Source: an uncultured Chlorobiaceae bacterium
GTDB lineage: Bacteria > Bacteroidota > Chlorobiia > Chlorobiales > Chlorobiaceae
Reading direction: 5' to 3'
DNA: 38,633 nucleotides
Assembly: GCA_903869365.1 (NCBI GenBank)
Contig: CAIPYV010000020.1
Span: 1 to 38,633 of the forward strand
In this document: positions 238 to 11,650 of the stretch, piece after piece
Numbering within the stretch: position 1 is the first letter of the stretch
Layout of the letters: each line of letters opens with the position of its first letter
Program-made: the position numbers and the translations under genes
The notes under the pieces: generated by a model
The model's database searches: none
What the model saw: the letters and a program-made list of their open reading frames with translations, nothing else
Told to the model about the DNA's origin: nothing

Positions 238-1311
238 TCAAATCTCATAATCCCCTGTAAACACCCTGACCCTGTTAATGGTAACAAAAACCTGCACCCC
301 TTTTGCCAATTGAAGATTCACGAACAGCTCTCTCGGGACTTCAGCTTCAATGGTGCTGTCAAGACCTTCGCACGCTATGTTCAGCCCAATTTGTCCACCA
401 AGGAGACGTACCTCTCGGATGCTTCCTGCAAGATCATTTTCGCTGCTGCGTATTCTGCTGATCCCTATCTCATGAGGCCTTACAAAGGTCTGGCTTGGTT
501 TTTCATCAATGTTTTTCAGCTCATCAGGTGCATCAAGATGATGATTGCCAAAGCTGACCTTGCCGTTTTTGATACGCCCGTGAAAGACGTTGACATTGCC
601 CAGAAAGTTGTAGACAAAGGCATTTGCCGGATGATCGTAGACCTCCTGCGGGGTTCCCTGTTGTTCAATCCTGCCTTTGTTGATCACGACAATTTTATCC
701 GCAAGTTCGAGTGCCTCCTCCTGGTCGTGGGTAACAAAAATACTGGTGACATGGATTTCATCATGAAGTTTTCTGAGCCATCGGCGCAGCTCCTGCCGAA
801 CCTTTGCATCAAGAGCTGAAAATGGCTCATCAAGCAGCAGTACTCGCGGATTAACCGCCAAAGCCCTTGCAAGGGCAACACGCTGGCGCTGTCCGCCCGA
901 AAGTTGTGACGGGTAACGTTTCATGGCCCAATCCATCTGCACCAGCGTCAGAAGATGTTCAACCCTGTCACGAATCTCACTGCGCGAAGGACGTTCCCTG
1001 AAAGGGAGCACCTTAAGGCCGAAAGCAACATTCTCAAAAACGTTCAGGCGTCGGAACAGCGCATAGTGCTGAAAAACAAAGCCGACATTTTTTTTCCTTG
1101 GCGGAAGGTTTGTGGTGTCCTTGTTTTCCAGTATGATTTTTCCCGAATCGGCCAGCTCCAGACCGGCAATAATCCGCAGCAGAGTGGTTTTTCCACAGCC
1201 CGATGGTCCAAGAAGAGCAATGAGATCACCTGATGCGATCGTGAGGCTTAGGTCGTCAATTGCTCGATACTCACCGAATTTTTTCGTAAGGTGCTGAAGT
1301 TCAATACCCAT
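238..1311 (-). CDS. cysA: Sulfate/thiosulfate ABC transporter ATP-binding protein CysA
   Basis: This is the ATPase that drives sulfate or thiosulfate import through the CysT/CysW channel at the inner membrane. The 357-residue protein has Walker [10 protein letters not shown] (about residues 35-43), Q-loop [11 protein letters not shown] signature LSGGQ (137-141), Walker B LLLDEP (158-163), D-loop SALD and an H-loop in FVTHDQEEA. The C-terminal third is a TOBE-type regulatory region. Length and order fit the CysA family. It is the last gene of the operon, 8 bases after cysW. The molybdate (ModC) and phosphate families share this fold, but the two neighbouring permeases and the Sbp-type binding protein point to sulfate. 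Confidence 0.93.
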
Positions 1312-1319
1312 GAATGCTC

Positions 1320-2189
1320 CTAATGATGAAAGCTGTTTTTCTGAAAATGTTTCTCCATCCCGCTCTTCAGAACGACAGTGAGCAAAGCGAGGAAGACGAG
1401 AAGTGATGCAACAGCAAACGATGCTGTAAAATTGTATTCGCTGTAAAGAATTTCAACATGCAGCGGAATGGTGTTGGTCTGGCCGCGGATATGCCCCGAA
1501 ACAACCGACACGGCACCAAACTCTCCGATAGATCGAGCACCGCAAAGGATCATGCCATATAACAGTCCCCACCTGATGTTGGGAAGGGTGATTTTACCGA
1601 AAATCTGCCATCCTCTTGCGCCCAGAGTCAAGGCAGCTTCCTCTTCATCTCTGCCTTGGGCTTCCATCAAGGGAATCAGTTCGCGGGCGATAAACGGAAA
1701 GGTTACAAAGATGGTGGCAATGACGATCCCGGGGGTCGAAAAGATAATTTTAATGCCCAGTTCCCCAAGCCATGAACCAAACGGTGTCCGGCTGCCGACA
1801 AGGAGAACAAAAATAAGACCGGCAATTACCGGAGAGACTGCAAAAGGCAGGTCAAGCAGACTTTTCAGTGCCGTTTTCCCTTTAAAATTGAATTTTGTGA
1901 TGGTCCAGGCAGCTGCAACACCGAAAACAGCATTCACCGGCACGACGATGGCAACCGTCAGCAGGGTTAGTTTGACTGATTCAATGGCGTATGGTTCAGT
2001 GATGGAGGCCAGGTAGAAACTCCATCCTTTCAGGAAAGCCTGGGAAAAGACCAAACCAAGCGGCAGAAAAATAAACCCGATAAAAAAGAGATAGGTAAGA
2101 CCGATCAGCAGAACTTGAACTGCACGAGGATCTGAAACTCTTTTTTTTACAACAGGGGAGTTACTCTTTGATGTTTCGGGTTGTGGCAT
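1320..2189 (-). CDS. cysW: Sulfate ABC transporter permease CysW
   Basis: One of two inner-membrane subunits that form the sulfate channel. The 289-residue protein has a hydrophobic helix near residues 30-50 and five further membrane segments. The EAA loop that contacts CysA is visible as [19 protein letters not shown] (about residues 182-200). [20 protein letters not shown] near residue 220 is characteristic of CysW. Three bases separate it from cysT and eight from cysA, so the three are surely co-transcribed and probably translationally coupled. Confidence 0.93.
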
Positions 2190-2192
2190 GGC

Positions 2193-3029
2193 TTATGAAC
2201 GATATTCTTTCTGTTGCCACTCCTGCACTGCATTGAGCAGCAGAAGCATGGAAAATGAGATGCAGAGAAGCACAAGCGCAACAGCCGATGCGCCAGCATA
2301 GTCAAACTGATCGAGTTTCGACATGATCATCAAGGGAGCAATCTCGGTTTTCATCGGCAGATTGCCCGCGATGAAGATGACTGACCCGTACTCACCGATA
2401 CCACGGGCAAAAGCAAGCGTTACACCCGTGAGCAAAGCAGGGAAGAGGTGAGGAAGCAGGATTTTTCTGAAGGTCTGCCAGCGTGTTGCCCCAAGACAGT
2501 GCGCAGCCTCCTCAATCTCCAGTTCCATCTCTTCAAGAACCGGTTGAATCGTGCGGACAACAAACGGAAAGCCGATAAAAATTAGAGCAATCACTATCCC
2601 TGTCGGCGTATTGATAATCTGCAGGTTCAAGCGTGCGAGGATCTGTCCAAACCAGCCTATAGGTGAATAAAGAGTGGCAAAGCAGATGCCTGCTACGGCG
2701 GTTGGCAGTGCAAAAGGCAGATCGACCAGAGCGTCCAGCAACCCTTTGCCGGGGAAACGGTAACGCACCAGCACCCAGGCGGTCAGAAGGCCTGCAAAAG
2801 CATCAAAAAGCGCGGCAAAGAAAGCTGTGGAAAAGCTCAGTCTGTAAGATGCAAGAACACGAGGCGCTGTTACAGCATTCACAAACGGCTCCCATCCCAT
2901 CGGAATGGTGTTAAAGAAGATCATACTCAAGGGCACAAGAACAATTGCCGAAAGGTAGAATACCGTGTATCCCATCGACAGTCCGAAACCGGGAAGAATG
3001 TTGCGTCTTTTGCTCTGAAACAATGCCAT
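2193..3029 (-). CDS. cysT: Sulfate ABC transporter permease CysT (CysU)
   Basis: Partner permease of CysW. The 278-residue protein has about six membrane helices. Its EAA loop reads EEAAHCLGATRWQTFRKILLP, shortened here only in description, and the downstream ARGIGEYGSVIFIAGN motif is the CysT version of the family signature. The ATG lies 113 bases after the sbp stop, and no clear Shine-Dalgarno sequence precedes it. The gap to sbp is the only sizeable spacer in the operon and could hold a processing site that lets the binding protein be made in excess. Confidence 0.92.
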   Translation of the reverse strand: MALFQSKRRNILPGFGLSMGYTVFYLSAIVLVPLSMIFFNTIPMGWEPFVNAVTAPRVLASYRLSFSTAFFAALFDAFAGLLTAWVLVRYRFPGKGLLDALVDLPFALPTAVAGICFATLYSPIGWFGQILARLNLQIINTPTGIVIALIFIGFPFVVRTIQPVLEEMELEIEEAAHCLGATRWQTFRKILLPHLFPALLTGVTLAFARGIGEYGSVIFIAGNLPMKTEIAPLMIMSKLDQFDYAGASAVALVLLCISFSMLLLLNAVQEWQQKEYRS

Positions 3030-3142: not shown

Positions 3143-4159
3143 TCAGAGAGAGTAGATCTGATCGAAAATCCCGCCGTCGTTAAAATGAGTCTTCTGTGCA
3201 GAGCGCCAGTTTCCAAATACTTCGCCCAATGTGAAAAGCTTGATTTTGGGGAAGTTCGCCGCATATTTTTTCAAAGCTGCAGGGTTGCGCGGACGATAAT
3301 AGTTTTCTGCAATGATCTCCTGTGCTTGAGGGGTATAGAGGAAGTTCAGATAGGCCTCTGCAATCTTGCGGGTACCGTGCTTCGCGACATTTTTATCAAC
3401 AATAGCTACAGGTGGTTCAGCCAGTATACTTACCGATGGAGATACGATTTCATACTTGTCAGAACCGAACTCTTTAAGAATCAGGTGAGCTTCATTTTCC
3501 CAGGCTATAAGCACATCACCCAGTCCGCGTTGAGCAAAGCTAAGCGTCGAGCCACGGGCACCGGTATCAAGCACAGGGACATTCTTGTATAAAGCCTTGA
3601 TAAAAGTTTTAGCCTGTTCAGTGGAACCGGTTTGTTTTTGCTTGAACCCCCATGCCGCCAGGTAGTTCCAGCGTGCACCACCGGATGTTTTCGGGTTTGG
3701 CGTGATAACGGATACTCCCGGTTTAATAAGGTCATCCCAGTTTTTTATCTGTTTAGGATTTCCTTTTCTGACAACAAAAACTATCGTAGAGCTGTAAGGT
3801 GTACTGTTGCTGGCCAGTCTTTTCTGCCAGTTGATGTCGAGAAGTTTACTGTCAGCAATCGCATCGATGTCATAAGCAAGAGCAAGCGTCACAACATCAG
3901 CCTCCAGGCCGTCAATGACCGCACGCGCCTGCTTTCCCGATCCACCGTGCGACTGGTTGATCACCACGGTCTGGCCGCTTTTCTTCTGCCAGTACTGAGC
4001 AAATGCACTGTTTTCGCTCTGATAGAGCTCCCTTGTAGGGTCATAGGAAACATTCAGCAGTGTTGTACTTCCCGTAGCCCTTGCGATTGTCCCTGATATG
4101 CCCGAGGCCAGAATAATCGTTGCGGCAAGCGTTATTTTCTTTATCCCCTGAAAATTCAT
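3143..4159 (-). CDS. sbp: Periplasmic sulfate-binding protein (Sbp/CysP family)
   Basis: This captures sulfate in the periplasm and delivers it to CysT/CysW. The 338-residue protein begins with a typical signal peptide (KK followed by a hydrophobic stretch, probable cleavage near residue 28 after ATA-like small residues). Family hallmarks are [10 protein letters not shown] just after the signal, the [13 protein letters not shown] segment and [11 protein letters not shown]. It is the first gene of the operon, with a good ribosome binding site (AAAGGAGA) 6 bases before the ATG. Thiosulfate-specific CysP has the same fold, so substrate preference cannot be decided by eye. Confidence 0.92.
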
Positions 4160-4201: not shown

Positions 4202-4241
4202 CAAAAAAAAAGCCGGTTCTCTGCACTGTCAGGAACCGGCT
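4202..4241 (-). terminator. Intrinsic terminator in the leader of the sulfate operon
   Basis: On the minus strand AGCCGGTTC pairs with GAACCGGCT around a loop of about 13 bases, and the 3' arm runs straight into nine T. This is a textbook terminator, yet it lies only about 40 bases before the sbp start codon and 300 bases after the upstream gene. It is therefore best read as an attenuator in the sbp leader. The alternatives are the end of a small RNA, or read-through control after the CMD gene. Confidence 0.8.
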
Positions 4242-4360
4242 AAAGAAAAGTGCTCAATCGCACTATCGACACAAACCGGATTTCCTTACCACCGCACACG
4301 TTATTATCTGACAGCAGCAACTACTGACGCAGCAAACAGTTCTTTCAGGCATAGTGCTCA
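4242..4360 (-). promoter_or_regulatory. Structured leader of the sulfate operon (possible riboswitch or attenuator)
   Basis: On the minus strand GCACTAT (complement of 4351-4357) can pair with ATAGTGC (complement of 4260-4266), closing a domain of about 84 bases that sits directly upstream of the terminator. Inside it is a direct repeat on the plus strand, CTGACAGCAGCAA and CTGACGCAGCAAA (4309-4337). CCGGTT (complement of 4274-4279) could pair with the 3' arm of the terminator and so act as an antiterminator. I do not recognise a known riboswitch consensus (not SAM-I, TPP, FMN or cobalamin as I can see). The role is inferred from layout only. Confidence 0.45.
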
Positions 4361-4436
4361 TAGTCTCAATGTTAAAGTTCATAACGCTTAATAAAACCTA
4401 ATCTTTTCAACCTCTCCAAGCATATACCCTAAAAAT

Positions 4437-4452
4437 ACCATAAATATGGTAG
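4437..4452. promoter_or_regulatory. 16-bp palindrome, possible operator of the sulfate operon
   Basis: TACCATA and TATGGTA are perfect 7-bp inverted arms around AA. On the minus strand a weak -10-like TATATG follows nine bases later, which would put the palindrome over the -35 area of a promoter for the sbp leader. A dimeric regulator could bind it. The rest of 4160-4546 contains no convincing reading frame. Confidence 0.35.
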
Positions 4453-4495
4453 ACGAAACTGGGGGACGAGATTCATAACGTACAGTATTATGTAG

Positions 4496-4520
4496 GTTGG
4501 GGCGATTCCTGAACCCCAAC
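4496..4520 (-). terminator. Hairpin after the CMD/AhpD-like gene
   Basis: GTTGGGG (4496-4502) and CCCCAAC (4514-4520) form a perfect 7-bp stem with an 11-base loop, 26 bases past the end of the minus-strand gene above. There is no T-run, so it may be a weak or factor-assisted end, or an mRNA-stabilising hairpin for the tgt-rimO transcript. Confidence 0.4.
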
Positions 4521-4546
4521 AAAACGAAAACTGTTCTGAGCGAAGT

Positions 4547-10831: not shown

Positions 10832-11650
10832 TTATTCCATTGAGCTGACTTTGACCGATACCTTCAGAGTTTCCAGACCATTGCCTTTATACGTGCCGCG
10901 TACAGGCGGAACGTCATCATAGTCTCTCCCCGAACCGATTTTGATATATCGCTCATCGACAAAAAGGGTGCTGTGTGTGGGGTCCATACCGATCCACCCT
11001 TTCTCCTTGCCGCAATAAACTTCACACCATGCGTGAGTAGCTTCATCCCGTCCATCCGGAGTGCTTCCCCCGAAAAGGTAACCGCTGACATATCGGGCAG
11101 GCACACCGAGATAGCGGCAGGCAGCAAGCATGATATGGGCAAAATCCTGGCAGACTCCCCGTCCAAGTGCCATCACGACCGCACTGGTACTGTGTACGTC
11201 GGTTACTCCAGGTTCGTAGATGAATGATTCATTGATGTGCCGGCATATCGATTCAGCAAGCTGAAAACTGTCGGTATTGGTGGCGAAAATGGAAGCAAAG
11301 TCACGTATAGCCTGATCAAAATGCACATAGCGACTCTGGCAGGTGAAGTCGATGAGAAAAATATCCTCATCTTCCGAGGCGGCACAGTGTCCAATACCGG
11401 TTTCAACCACGGAAGTTGCAACGATTTTCACCTGTTTATGACTCTGGAGCAGGTTGAAATGATTGACAATGTTGCCGTAGAAATCGGTGTATTCAAAAAT
11501 AGTTGCTGGGGGATCGACCTCCAGCTTGAAGCTTGCACACCGCTGTGGCGCAGCATGGTTGTTGTCAGGGTGCAGCCTTACTTCAGTAGCTGTTTCATAG
11601 ATCGGATTATCATATTCAAACAGGGTGGAATGTTCAACTTTTACAATCAT
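10832..11650 (-). CDS. Transglutaminase-like cysteine protease/amidase family protein
   Basis: A 272-residue cytoplasmic protein with no signal peptide. The N-terminal 80 residues match the bacterial transglutaminase N-terminal region (MIVKVEHSTLFEYDNPI). The core has a complete Cys-His-Asp triad: Cys167 in GRGVCQDFAH, His206 in EATHAWCEVY and Asp223 in WIGMDPTH. Family members cleave or transfer amide bonds. It is the last of three genes with the ATP-grasp and alpha-E proteins, a conserved trio proposed from comparative genomics to make and trim a peptide-like product. The real substrate is not known. Confidence 0.87.
   Translation of the reverse strand: MIVKVEHSTLFEYDNPIYETATEVRLHPDNNHAAPQRCASFKLEVDPPATIFEYTDFYGNIVNHFNLLQSHKQVKIVATSVVETGIGHCAASEDEDIFLIDFTCQSRYVHFDQAIRDFASIFATNTDSFQLAESICRHINESFIYEPGVTDVHSTSAVVMALGRGVCQDFAHIMLAACRYLGVPARYVSGYLFGGSTPDGRDEATHAWCEVYCGKEKGWIGMDPTHSTLFVDERYIKIGSGRDYDDVPPVRGTYKGNGLETLKVSVKVSSME

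Follow-up and report, generated by a model that had tools for sequence, protein, structure and literature searches.

Sulfate transporter operon and its upstream region

The window, i.e. the whole 38,633-nt stretch of DNA that was analysed, encodes a sulfate transporter on its minus strand with the gene order sbp-cysT-cysW-cysA. The first gene after the leader, sbp (3143..4159), codes for a sulfate ABC transporter substrate-binding protein (NF008022, 505 bits with a cut-off of 288; TIGR00971, 483 bits), followed by the sulfate permease genes cysT (2193..3029; TIGR02139, 391 bits, cut-off 246) and cysW (1320..2189; TIGR02140, 373 bits, cut-off 329) and the sulfate transporter ATPase gene cysA (238..1311; TIGR00968, 375 bits, cut-off 343). 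The intergenic end most distant from sbp holds a dispersed repeat (around GTTGGGGTTCAGGAATCGCCCCAAC, window 4489-4544) with at least 6 further partial copies in the genome.

Ahead of the leader on the minus strand, a predicted promoter, TTGGAG - 17 nt - TTTTAT (4391..4419), could be read from the sequence, and a TTGGAR-N17-TTTTAT-like element is kept at the same place in relatives; a scan with a consensus promoter did not pick up this element. Transcription would be expected to start at about 4384. The earlier note had considered that a promoter might lie between the terminator described below and sbp. None was seen there, and the promoter-like element (4419-4391) is instead located upstream of the leader ORF, which is the position that attenuation requires.

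Upstream of the predicted promoter, a pattern match revealed an operator-like site (TACCATATTTATGGTATTTTTAGGGTA, minus strand, 4425..4451; TACCATATTTATGGTA site), composed of the palindrome TACCATA-TT-TATGGTA and a third half-site and conserved ahead of sbp in relatives. The same pattern search gave 0 matches on a reversed control, and near-exact copies in the genome were restricted to three other contigs: C93, before a porin gene, C33, before a sulfite reductase-cysH operon, and C82, with one site. The copy on C33 (42274-42299, locus L003) precedes a sulfite reductase-like gene and then a cysH-like ORF. In this leader no clear ATG-started ORF was found in frame with the CCC-encoding TGTTGCTGT, and no consistent Cys leader ORF accompanies the operator of the sulfite reductase-cysH operon. 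The copy on C82 (ACCATATTAGGGGTATATTTACGGTA, 10842-10867, locus L246) lies about 280 nt upstream of the next ORF on the same strand, which by eye is radical-SAM-like. In a further group of sbp paralogues (L043, L051-L054), the operator is found about 90 nt before the start codon with neither leader ORF nor terminator, and these genes are presumably controlled at initiation only. The layout of the half-sites suggested a LysR-type activator; this candidate was dropped, as the genome gave no match to LysR_substrate (PF03466) in a search in which control genomes were positive. The genome also encodes two Rrf2 proteins, to which no link from the operator-like site was drawn.

A protein search with sbp gave matches in 58 of 86 genomes of the family, all from Chlorobiaceae and including Chlorobium ferrooxidans DSM 13031. 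Among 42 distinct Chlorobiaceae leaders, which come mostly from metagenome-assembled genomes, a common layout emerged, consisting of the palindromic operator, the promoter, a Cys-rich ORF with its stop codon, the terminator and sbp. When the class was searched with a covariance model built on the sbp leader, 50 of 98 genomes gave matches. All 50 were Chlorobiaceae, with both genera of the family represented, and the 12 class genomes of other families gave none. Outside Chlorobi, 8 of 43 sbp loci had some CC-containing ORF under a loose rule and none resembled this layout.

A short reading frame with conserved cysteine codons

The leader ORF (4263..4361, minus strand, stop codon TAG at 4265-4263) was delimited by comparison with relatives and has 32 codons, seven of them for Cys (MSTMPERTVCCVSSCCCQIITCAVVRKSGLCR). 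Its start codon (ATG at 4361) is a prediction chosen by the same comparison, and the Shine-Dalgarno sequence ahead of it is weak in the window and better in relatives. Thus, a short ORF rich in Cys codons, as leader-peptide attenuators need, is present at this locus, and the 42 distinct leaders have a similar ORF ahead of the terminator, mostly with 31-32 codons; tandem Cys occurs in 40 of them. Of the 1294 residues read in frame across these leaders, 208 (16%) were Cys, versus 18 and 36 when the two other frames were read (1-3%) and 62 +/- 7 in dinucleotide shuffles, although part of this enrichment is due to selection, as the ORFs had been chosen for CC or at least three Cys. A closely similar rule that required CC gave 1 match in 3000 random Chlorobiaceae stretches. 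Stop codons numbered 67 and 60 in the two other frames and 0 in frame, the latter by choice of the ORF.

The Cys codons are concentrated at particular positions. In leaders that aligned without gaps, Cys was found at codon 17 in 32/32, at codon 16 in 29/32, at codon 15 in 22/32 and at codon 31 in 24/32, with TGC and TGT interchanging at these conserved codons. Outside codons 15-17 and 31, 55 Cys remained in frame, the other frames had 7 and 28, and shuffles gave 26 +/- 4 with a maximum of 40. The rest of the peptide drifts under weak amino-acid constraint (pN/pS 0.75). The peptide of the Chlorobium ferrooxidans leader (L045/L103) is MSTFSYTPFCSEERCCCQLKRDYDNTISGCCP. In divergent leaders the Cys cluster itself is shifted, for example to RTRCCCDKSC or TFTCCCPKRE. 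A dN/dS test by frame (0.75, 1.03 and 0.66) did not discriminate the coding frame, as would be expected if only the Cys codons matter. As far as sequences can tell, a variable peptide with near-invariant Cys codons is the signature of a control-codon leader peptide, and the codons TGC-TGC-TGT in the window (Cys15-17; 4311..4319, minus strand) are, on the grounds of their conservation, the proposed site of ribosome stalling (region 1). What had initially been taken for an aptamer-like domain is accordingly a conserved reading frame rich in Cys codons, of which the control codons are conserved rather than the fold.

Terminator and alternative pairing

The intrinsic terminator (regions 3:4; minus strand, hairpin 4241-4211, U-tract to 4203) is a 9-bp hairpin with the sequence AGCCGGTTCCTGACAGTGCAGAGAACCGGCT and about -19.1 kcal/mol, followed by T's to 4203, and its hairpin ends 51 nt before the ATG of sbp (4159). 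It had been noticed in the window at the outset; it also precedes sbp in 48 Chlorobiaceae loci, where it recurs with compensatory changes. In the alignment 94% of the cells were paired, both sides had changed in 6 of 12 pairs, and the covariation score was matched by 0 of 500 shuffles, a test that is inflated, like the swap tests below, by the relatedness of the sequences. A terminator scan of viral contigs gave no match. Across the 42 leaders, the ORF stop codon and the terminator are mostly 21-25 nt apart, and the stretch between terminator and ATG of sbp varies from 37 to 74 nt.

The earlier note had also proposed that a domain of 84 nt is closed by the stem GCACTAT (4357-4351) / ATAGTGC (4266-4260). 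The elements named in the note are all present. This 7-bp match is free of mismatches, with exactly 84 nt enclosed, and yet it does not behave as a closing helix: it is absent from the MFE structure, and among the 12 closest relatives its covariation was not above that of shuffles. As an aptamer helix P1 the stem was rejected for this lack of covariation. Its first arm coincides with codons 2-4 of the leader ORF, and the second shares bases with the stop codon as well as with a local hairpin (4264-4249). The fold of the leader region as a single sequence was not unusual, with a z of only -1.31.

A different pairing partner of the terminator was found in the last third of the ORF. Here the segment AGGAA-AT-CCGG (region 2; 4276..4286, minus strand) is complementary to CCGGTTCCT (region 3; 4231..4239, minus strand), which is common to the 5' arm of the terminator and to the antiterminator. 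Nested within the antiterminator, between the stop codon and the terminator, lies a small hairpin, AGTGC-GATTGA-GCACT (4249..4264, minus strand); leaders of a second subgroup have a nested hairpin too. A CCGGTT motif, suggested before as an antiterminator element, is indeed located in the 84-nt domain (4279-4274) and could pair with the 3' arm of the terminator, but the pairing of AGGAA..CCGG with CCGGTTCCT is longer and recurs in relatives. Including flanking pairs, the region 2:3 duplex of the window amounts to about -22.0 kcal/mol versus -19.1 for the terminator. The two structures are mutually exclusive, as both need the terminator 5' arm.

The register of the antiterminator differs between subgroups of leaders, one of which uses GTGTAGGTAA around the stop codon. 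Owing to these shifts, RNAalifold gave no single antiterminator consensus when the subgroups were mixed, and they were then treated apart. In the two subgroups, 82% and 79% of the antiterminator cells were paired, versus 29-47% when the strands were slid. In the closest subgroup, the antiterminator covaried no more than shuffles, and in the second only modestly more. Native regions 2 and 3 of sbp leaders paired better than swapped ones (p about 0.005, a value that is optimistic owing to relatedness).

Folding of the nascent RNA was modelled with the ribosome at either of two positions, in calculations that leave out kinetics and the exact ribosome footprint. With the RNA made unavailable up to 9 nt past the last codon of the Cys cluster, as for a stalled ribosome, the nascent RNA of the leader in the window folded with -28.9 kcal/mol and 9/9 bases of the terminator 5' arm were engaged. 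Under the same model, bases of this arm were paired upstream in 42/42 leaders, and the stability of the nascent RNA exceeded that obtained with shuffled upstream sequence (mean z -1.73, 30/42 leaders below -1). With the RNA unavailable up to 9 nt past the stop codon, the terminator alone was left, and its pairing probability exceeded 0.9 in most cases. Even with a ribosome placed at the Cys codons, the terminator is usually still the favoured structure at equilibrium, so antitermination would have to depend on kinetics. Hairpins that join the Cys codons to downstream codons, of the 1:2 pause type, were found in many leaders and not in all. Taken together, complementarity, stability and geometry support, within these models, an antiterminator that would be exposed by a stalled ribosome and masked by one at the stop codon.

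A second leader before a porin gene

A further Cys attenuator of this kind, as judged from its ORF, terminator and operator, is predicted before the porin gene on C93 (10263-10580, minus strand, locus L073). This leader of about 300 nt includes the operator, the reading frame MISQGLFSERVFSTLSCCCCLSMDADIPNTEFVT and a terminator, AAAGCCGGCTTTCAGTATCAGAGCCGGCTTT, with a run of T's after it, and its peptide has the CCCC-containing stretch TLSCCCCLSMDAD. It shares the operator and the layout of the sbp leader and differs in the sequence of the attenuator. In all 10 of the closest porin leaders examined (L154-L163, the one of this genome included), the leader ORF contained CC and was accompanied by an antiterminator and a terminator. 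Regions 2 and 3 of the porin leaders differ between subgroups and yet stay complementary, with TATACTGAATACCG facing CCGGTTTTCAGTATC in one and AAAAACGGAAAAGCC facing AGCTTTTTCGTTTT in another; in the swap test, p was about 0.02 (again inflated by relatedness). That the same logic recurs in different letters argues more strongly than any other observation for selection on the layout itself.

Proposed mechanism and alternative explanations

Judged from its sequence features, the leader is very likely a ribosome-mediated transcription attenuator of the trp/his type, which senses the charging of Cys-tRNA ahead of sbp-cysTWA. RNA polymerase would start near 4384 and transcribe the 32-codon ORF with a ribosome following. 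When Cys-tRNA is ample, this ribosome would reach the stop codon (4265-4263), its footprint covering the last codons of the ORF (AAATCCGGT) and thereby masking region 2, such that the 3:4 terminator could form and transcription would end before sbp. When cysteine, and with it Cys-tRNA(Cys), is scarce, the ribosome would stall on TGC-TGC-TGT (4319-4311), with region 2 lying about 24 nt further downstream. That segment (AGGAA..CCGG) could then capture region 3 before region 4 is synthesised, preventing the terminator and allowing sbp-cysT-cysW-cysA to be transcribed. The upstream operator-like site would add control at initiation that is common to the sulfite reductase-cysH operon and the porin gene. 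Based on this model, cysteine supply is most likely gauged by the speed of the ribosome on Cys codons, and sulfate uptake would be switched on only when cysteine is short; the direction of the response and its signal are taken from what is established for trp and his attenuation. The leader is very probably a new, sulfur-responsive cis-regulatory transcription attenuator for sulfate uptake, and its earlier nomination as a new cis-regulatory RNA candidate is supported.

Sulfur riboswitches are known in other bacteria, and a riboswitch, with the 84-nt domain as aptamer for a sulfur compound that switches the terminator, would account for the terminator, the alternative pairing and the sulfur operon downstream. 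We consider it very improbable. The proposed domain is a reading frame with 16% in-frame Cys, its sequence is free to vary apart from the Cys codons and the segments complementary to the terminator, no covariation supports the closing stem, and in stability the fold does not stand out from shuffled sequences. A conserved structured aptamer with covarying helices was not found. The statement of the earlier note that no known class was recognisable held in the Rfam search: no family matched at the gathering threshold in the window or in 20 relatives, with only chance matches in the leader at E<=10 and nothing but a tRNA elsewhere in the loci of the relatives. Of the two possibilities raised at that stage, a sulfur-responsive riboswitch or attenuator, the attenuator with its mutually exclusive terminator and antiterminator stands, and the aptamer gave way to the Cys ORF. 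There is only a small chance that the ORF instead encodes a functional Cys-rich microprotein, for example for binding of metal or sulfide, with the terminator merely setting its ratio to the transporter. While the ORF is conserved and carries Cys clusters, purifying selection on its residues is weak (pN/pS 0.75), Cys outside the cluster drifts and the cluster is shifted in divergent leaders. A microprotein would also have no need of a fixed terminator spacing or of complementarity between the 3' end of the ORF and the terminator.

Arrest peptides are conserved in their peptide sequence, unlike this leader outside its Cys residues. Control by such a peptide, or coupled to translation at the ribosome-binding site, in place of codon-limited transcription attenuation, would fit the presence of Cys in the leader and the precedent of mycobacterial polycysteine ORFs, which are described as cysteine-responsive attenuators (Canestrari 2020, as cited in PMC13236596). 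Nonetheless, the strong covarying terminator with its U-tract points to transcription and the non-Cys peptide sequence is not conserved, leaving this explanation with hardly any probability. A further reading, in which Cys-tRNA charging is not read passively and the Cys-rich nascent peptide would itself sense reduced sulfur, with sulfide or persulfide reacting with its Cys cluster in or near the ribosome, appears very doubtful; such a sulfide-sensing arrest peptide, if real, would suit an organism that alternates between sulfide and sulfate to obtain its sulfur. Finally, the terminator could be constitutive or mark the end of a small RNA, with sbp left unregulated. The strength of the terminator would agree with this, but the conserved Cys ORF, the spacing and the recurrence of this layout ahead of the porin gene, where the operator is also shared, speak so clearly against it that we regard it as practically negligible. 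The leader is thus best read as the Cys-codon attenuator outlined above, which shows how examining a leader codon by codon can settle the nature of a supposed riboswitch candidate.

Comparison with known systems

Green sulfur bacteria normally obtain their sulfur from sulfide. Photoferrotrophic and freshwater species living on scarce sulfate would need sulfate uptake only when cysteine is short, and the proposed attenuator offers a concrete and testable mechanism for such a switch. Sulfate assimilation has been shown for C. ferrooxidans and C. phaeoferrooxidans, and for photoferrotrophic Chlorobi transporter genes are described in an assimilation cassette, with LysR and porin going unmentioned there in a search for gene terms (PMC5498476).

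Leader-peptide attenuation as such is textbook knowledge, with the trp, his, leu and ilv attenuators of Proteobacteria as examples. The Chlorobiaceae leaders share with these the control codons, the competition of 2:3 with 3:4 pairing, the terminator before the first structural gene and a stop codon placed so that the terminating ribosome would mask region 2. They differ in the use of Cys codons, in the control of a transport operon, in their occurrence in green sulfur bacteria, in a region 2 that lies wholly inside the ORF and in a 1:2 hairpin that is not clearly conserved. T-box leaders likewise sense tRNA charging and switch a terminator, but the leader has no Rfam T-box match and contains an ORF instead of a specifier-loop architecture. 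In Chlorobia, a hisS T-box has been reported; it is the only case for which the 2010 survey of premature terminators lists this group, and sulfate is not mentioned there (PMC2965389).

The closest parallels concern cysteine. The uORFC-8-2 motif, a predicted case of ribosome-mediated attenuation by cysteine before cysS in Rhodobacterales (PMC8632094), is likened here by its text description: it has a short uORF with tandem Cys codons (14-15 there, 15-17 here) and an intrinsic terminator, and a stall at the Cys codons is proposed to allow readthrough, as in the present model. It belongs to Alphaproteobacteria and to cysS, unlike the leaders of Chlorobiaceae before a sulfate transporter and a porin, for which an antiterminator using the 3' end of the ORF is described. 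Mycobacterial polycysteine short ORFs are reported to be cysteine-responsive attenuators of operons (Canestrari et al. 2020, cited in PMC13236596) and resemble the Chlorobiaceae ORF as Cys-codon ORFs ahead of an operon. Those ORFs are leaderless, unlike the leadered Chlorobiaceae ORF, which is directly followed by a conserved intrinsic terminator. A search of full-text literature, of incomplete coverage, for cysteine leader peptides or attenuators found no case in Chlorobi or for sulfate uptake. While the kind of mechanism is known and Cys versions have been predicted elsewhere, its occurrence in Chlorobi and before sulfate uptake genes would, as far as found, be new. If the reading is correct, leader-peptide attenuation extends to Chlorobi, and its targets come to include sulfate transport genes as well as the gene for an outer-membrane porin.
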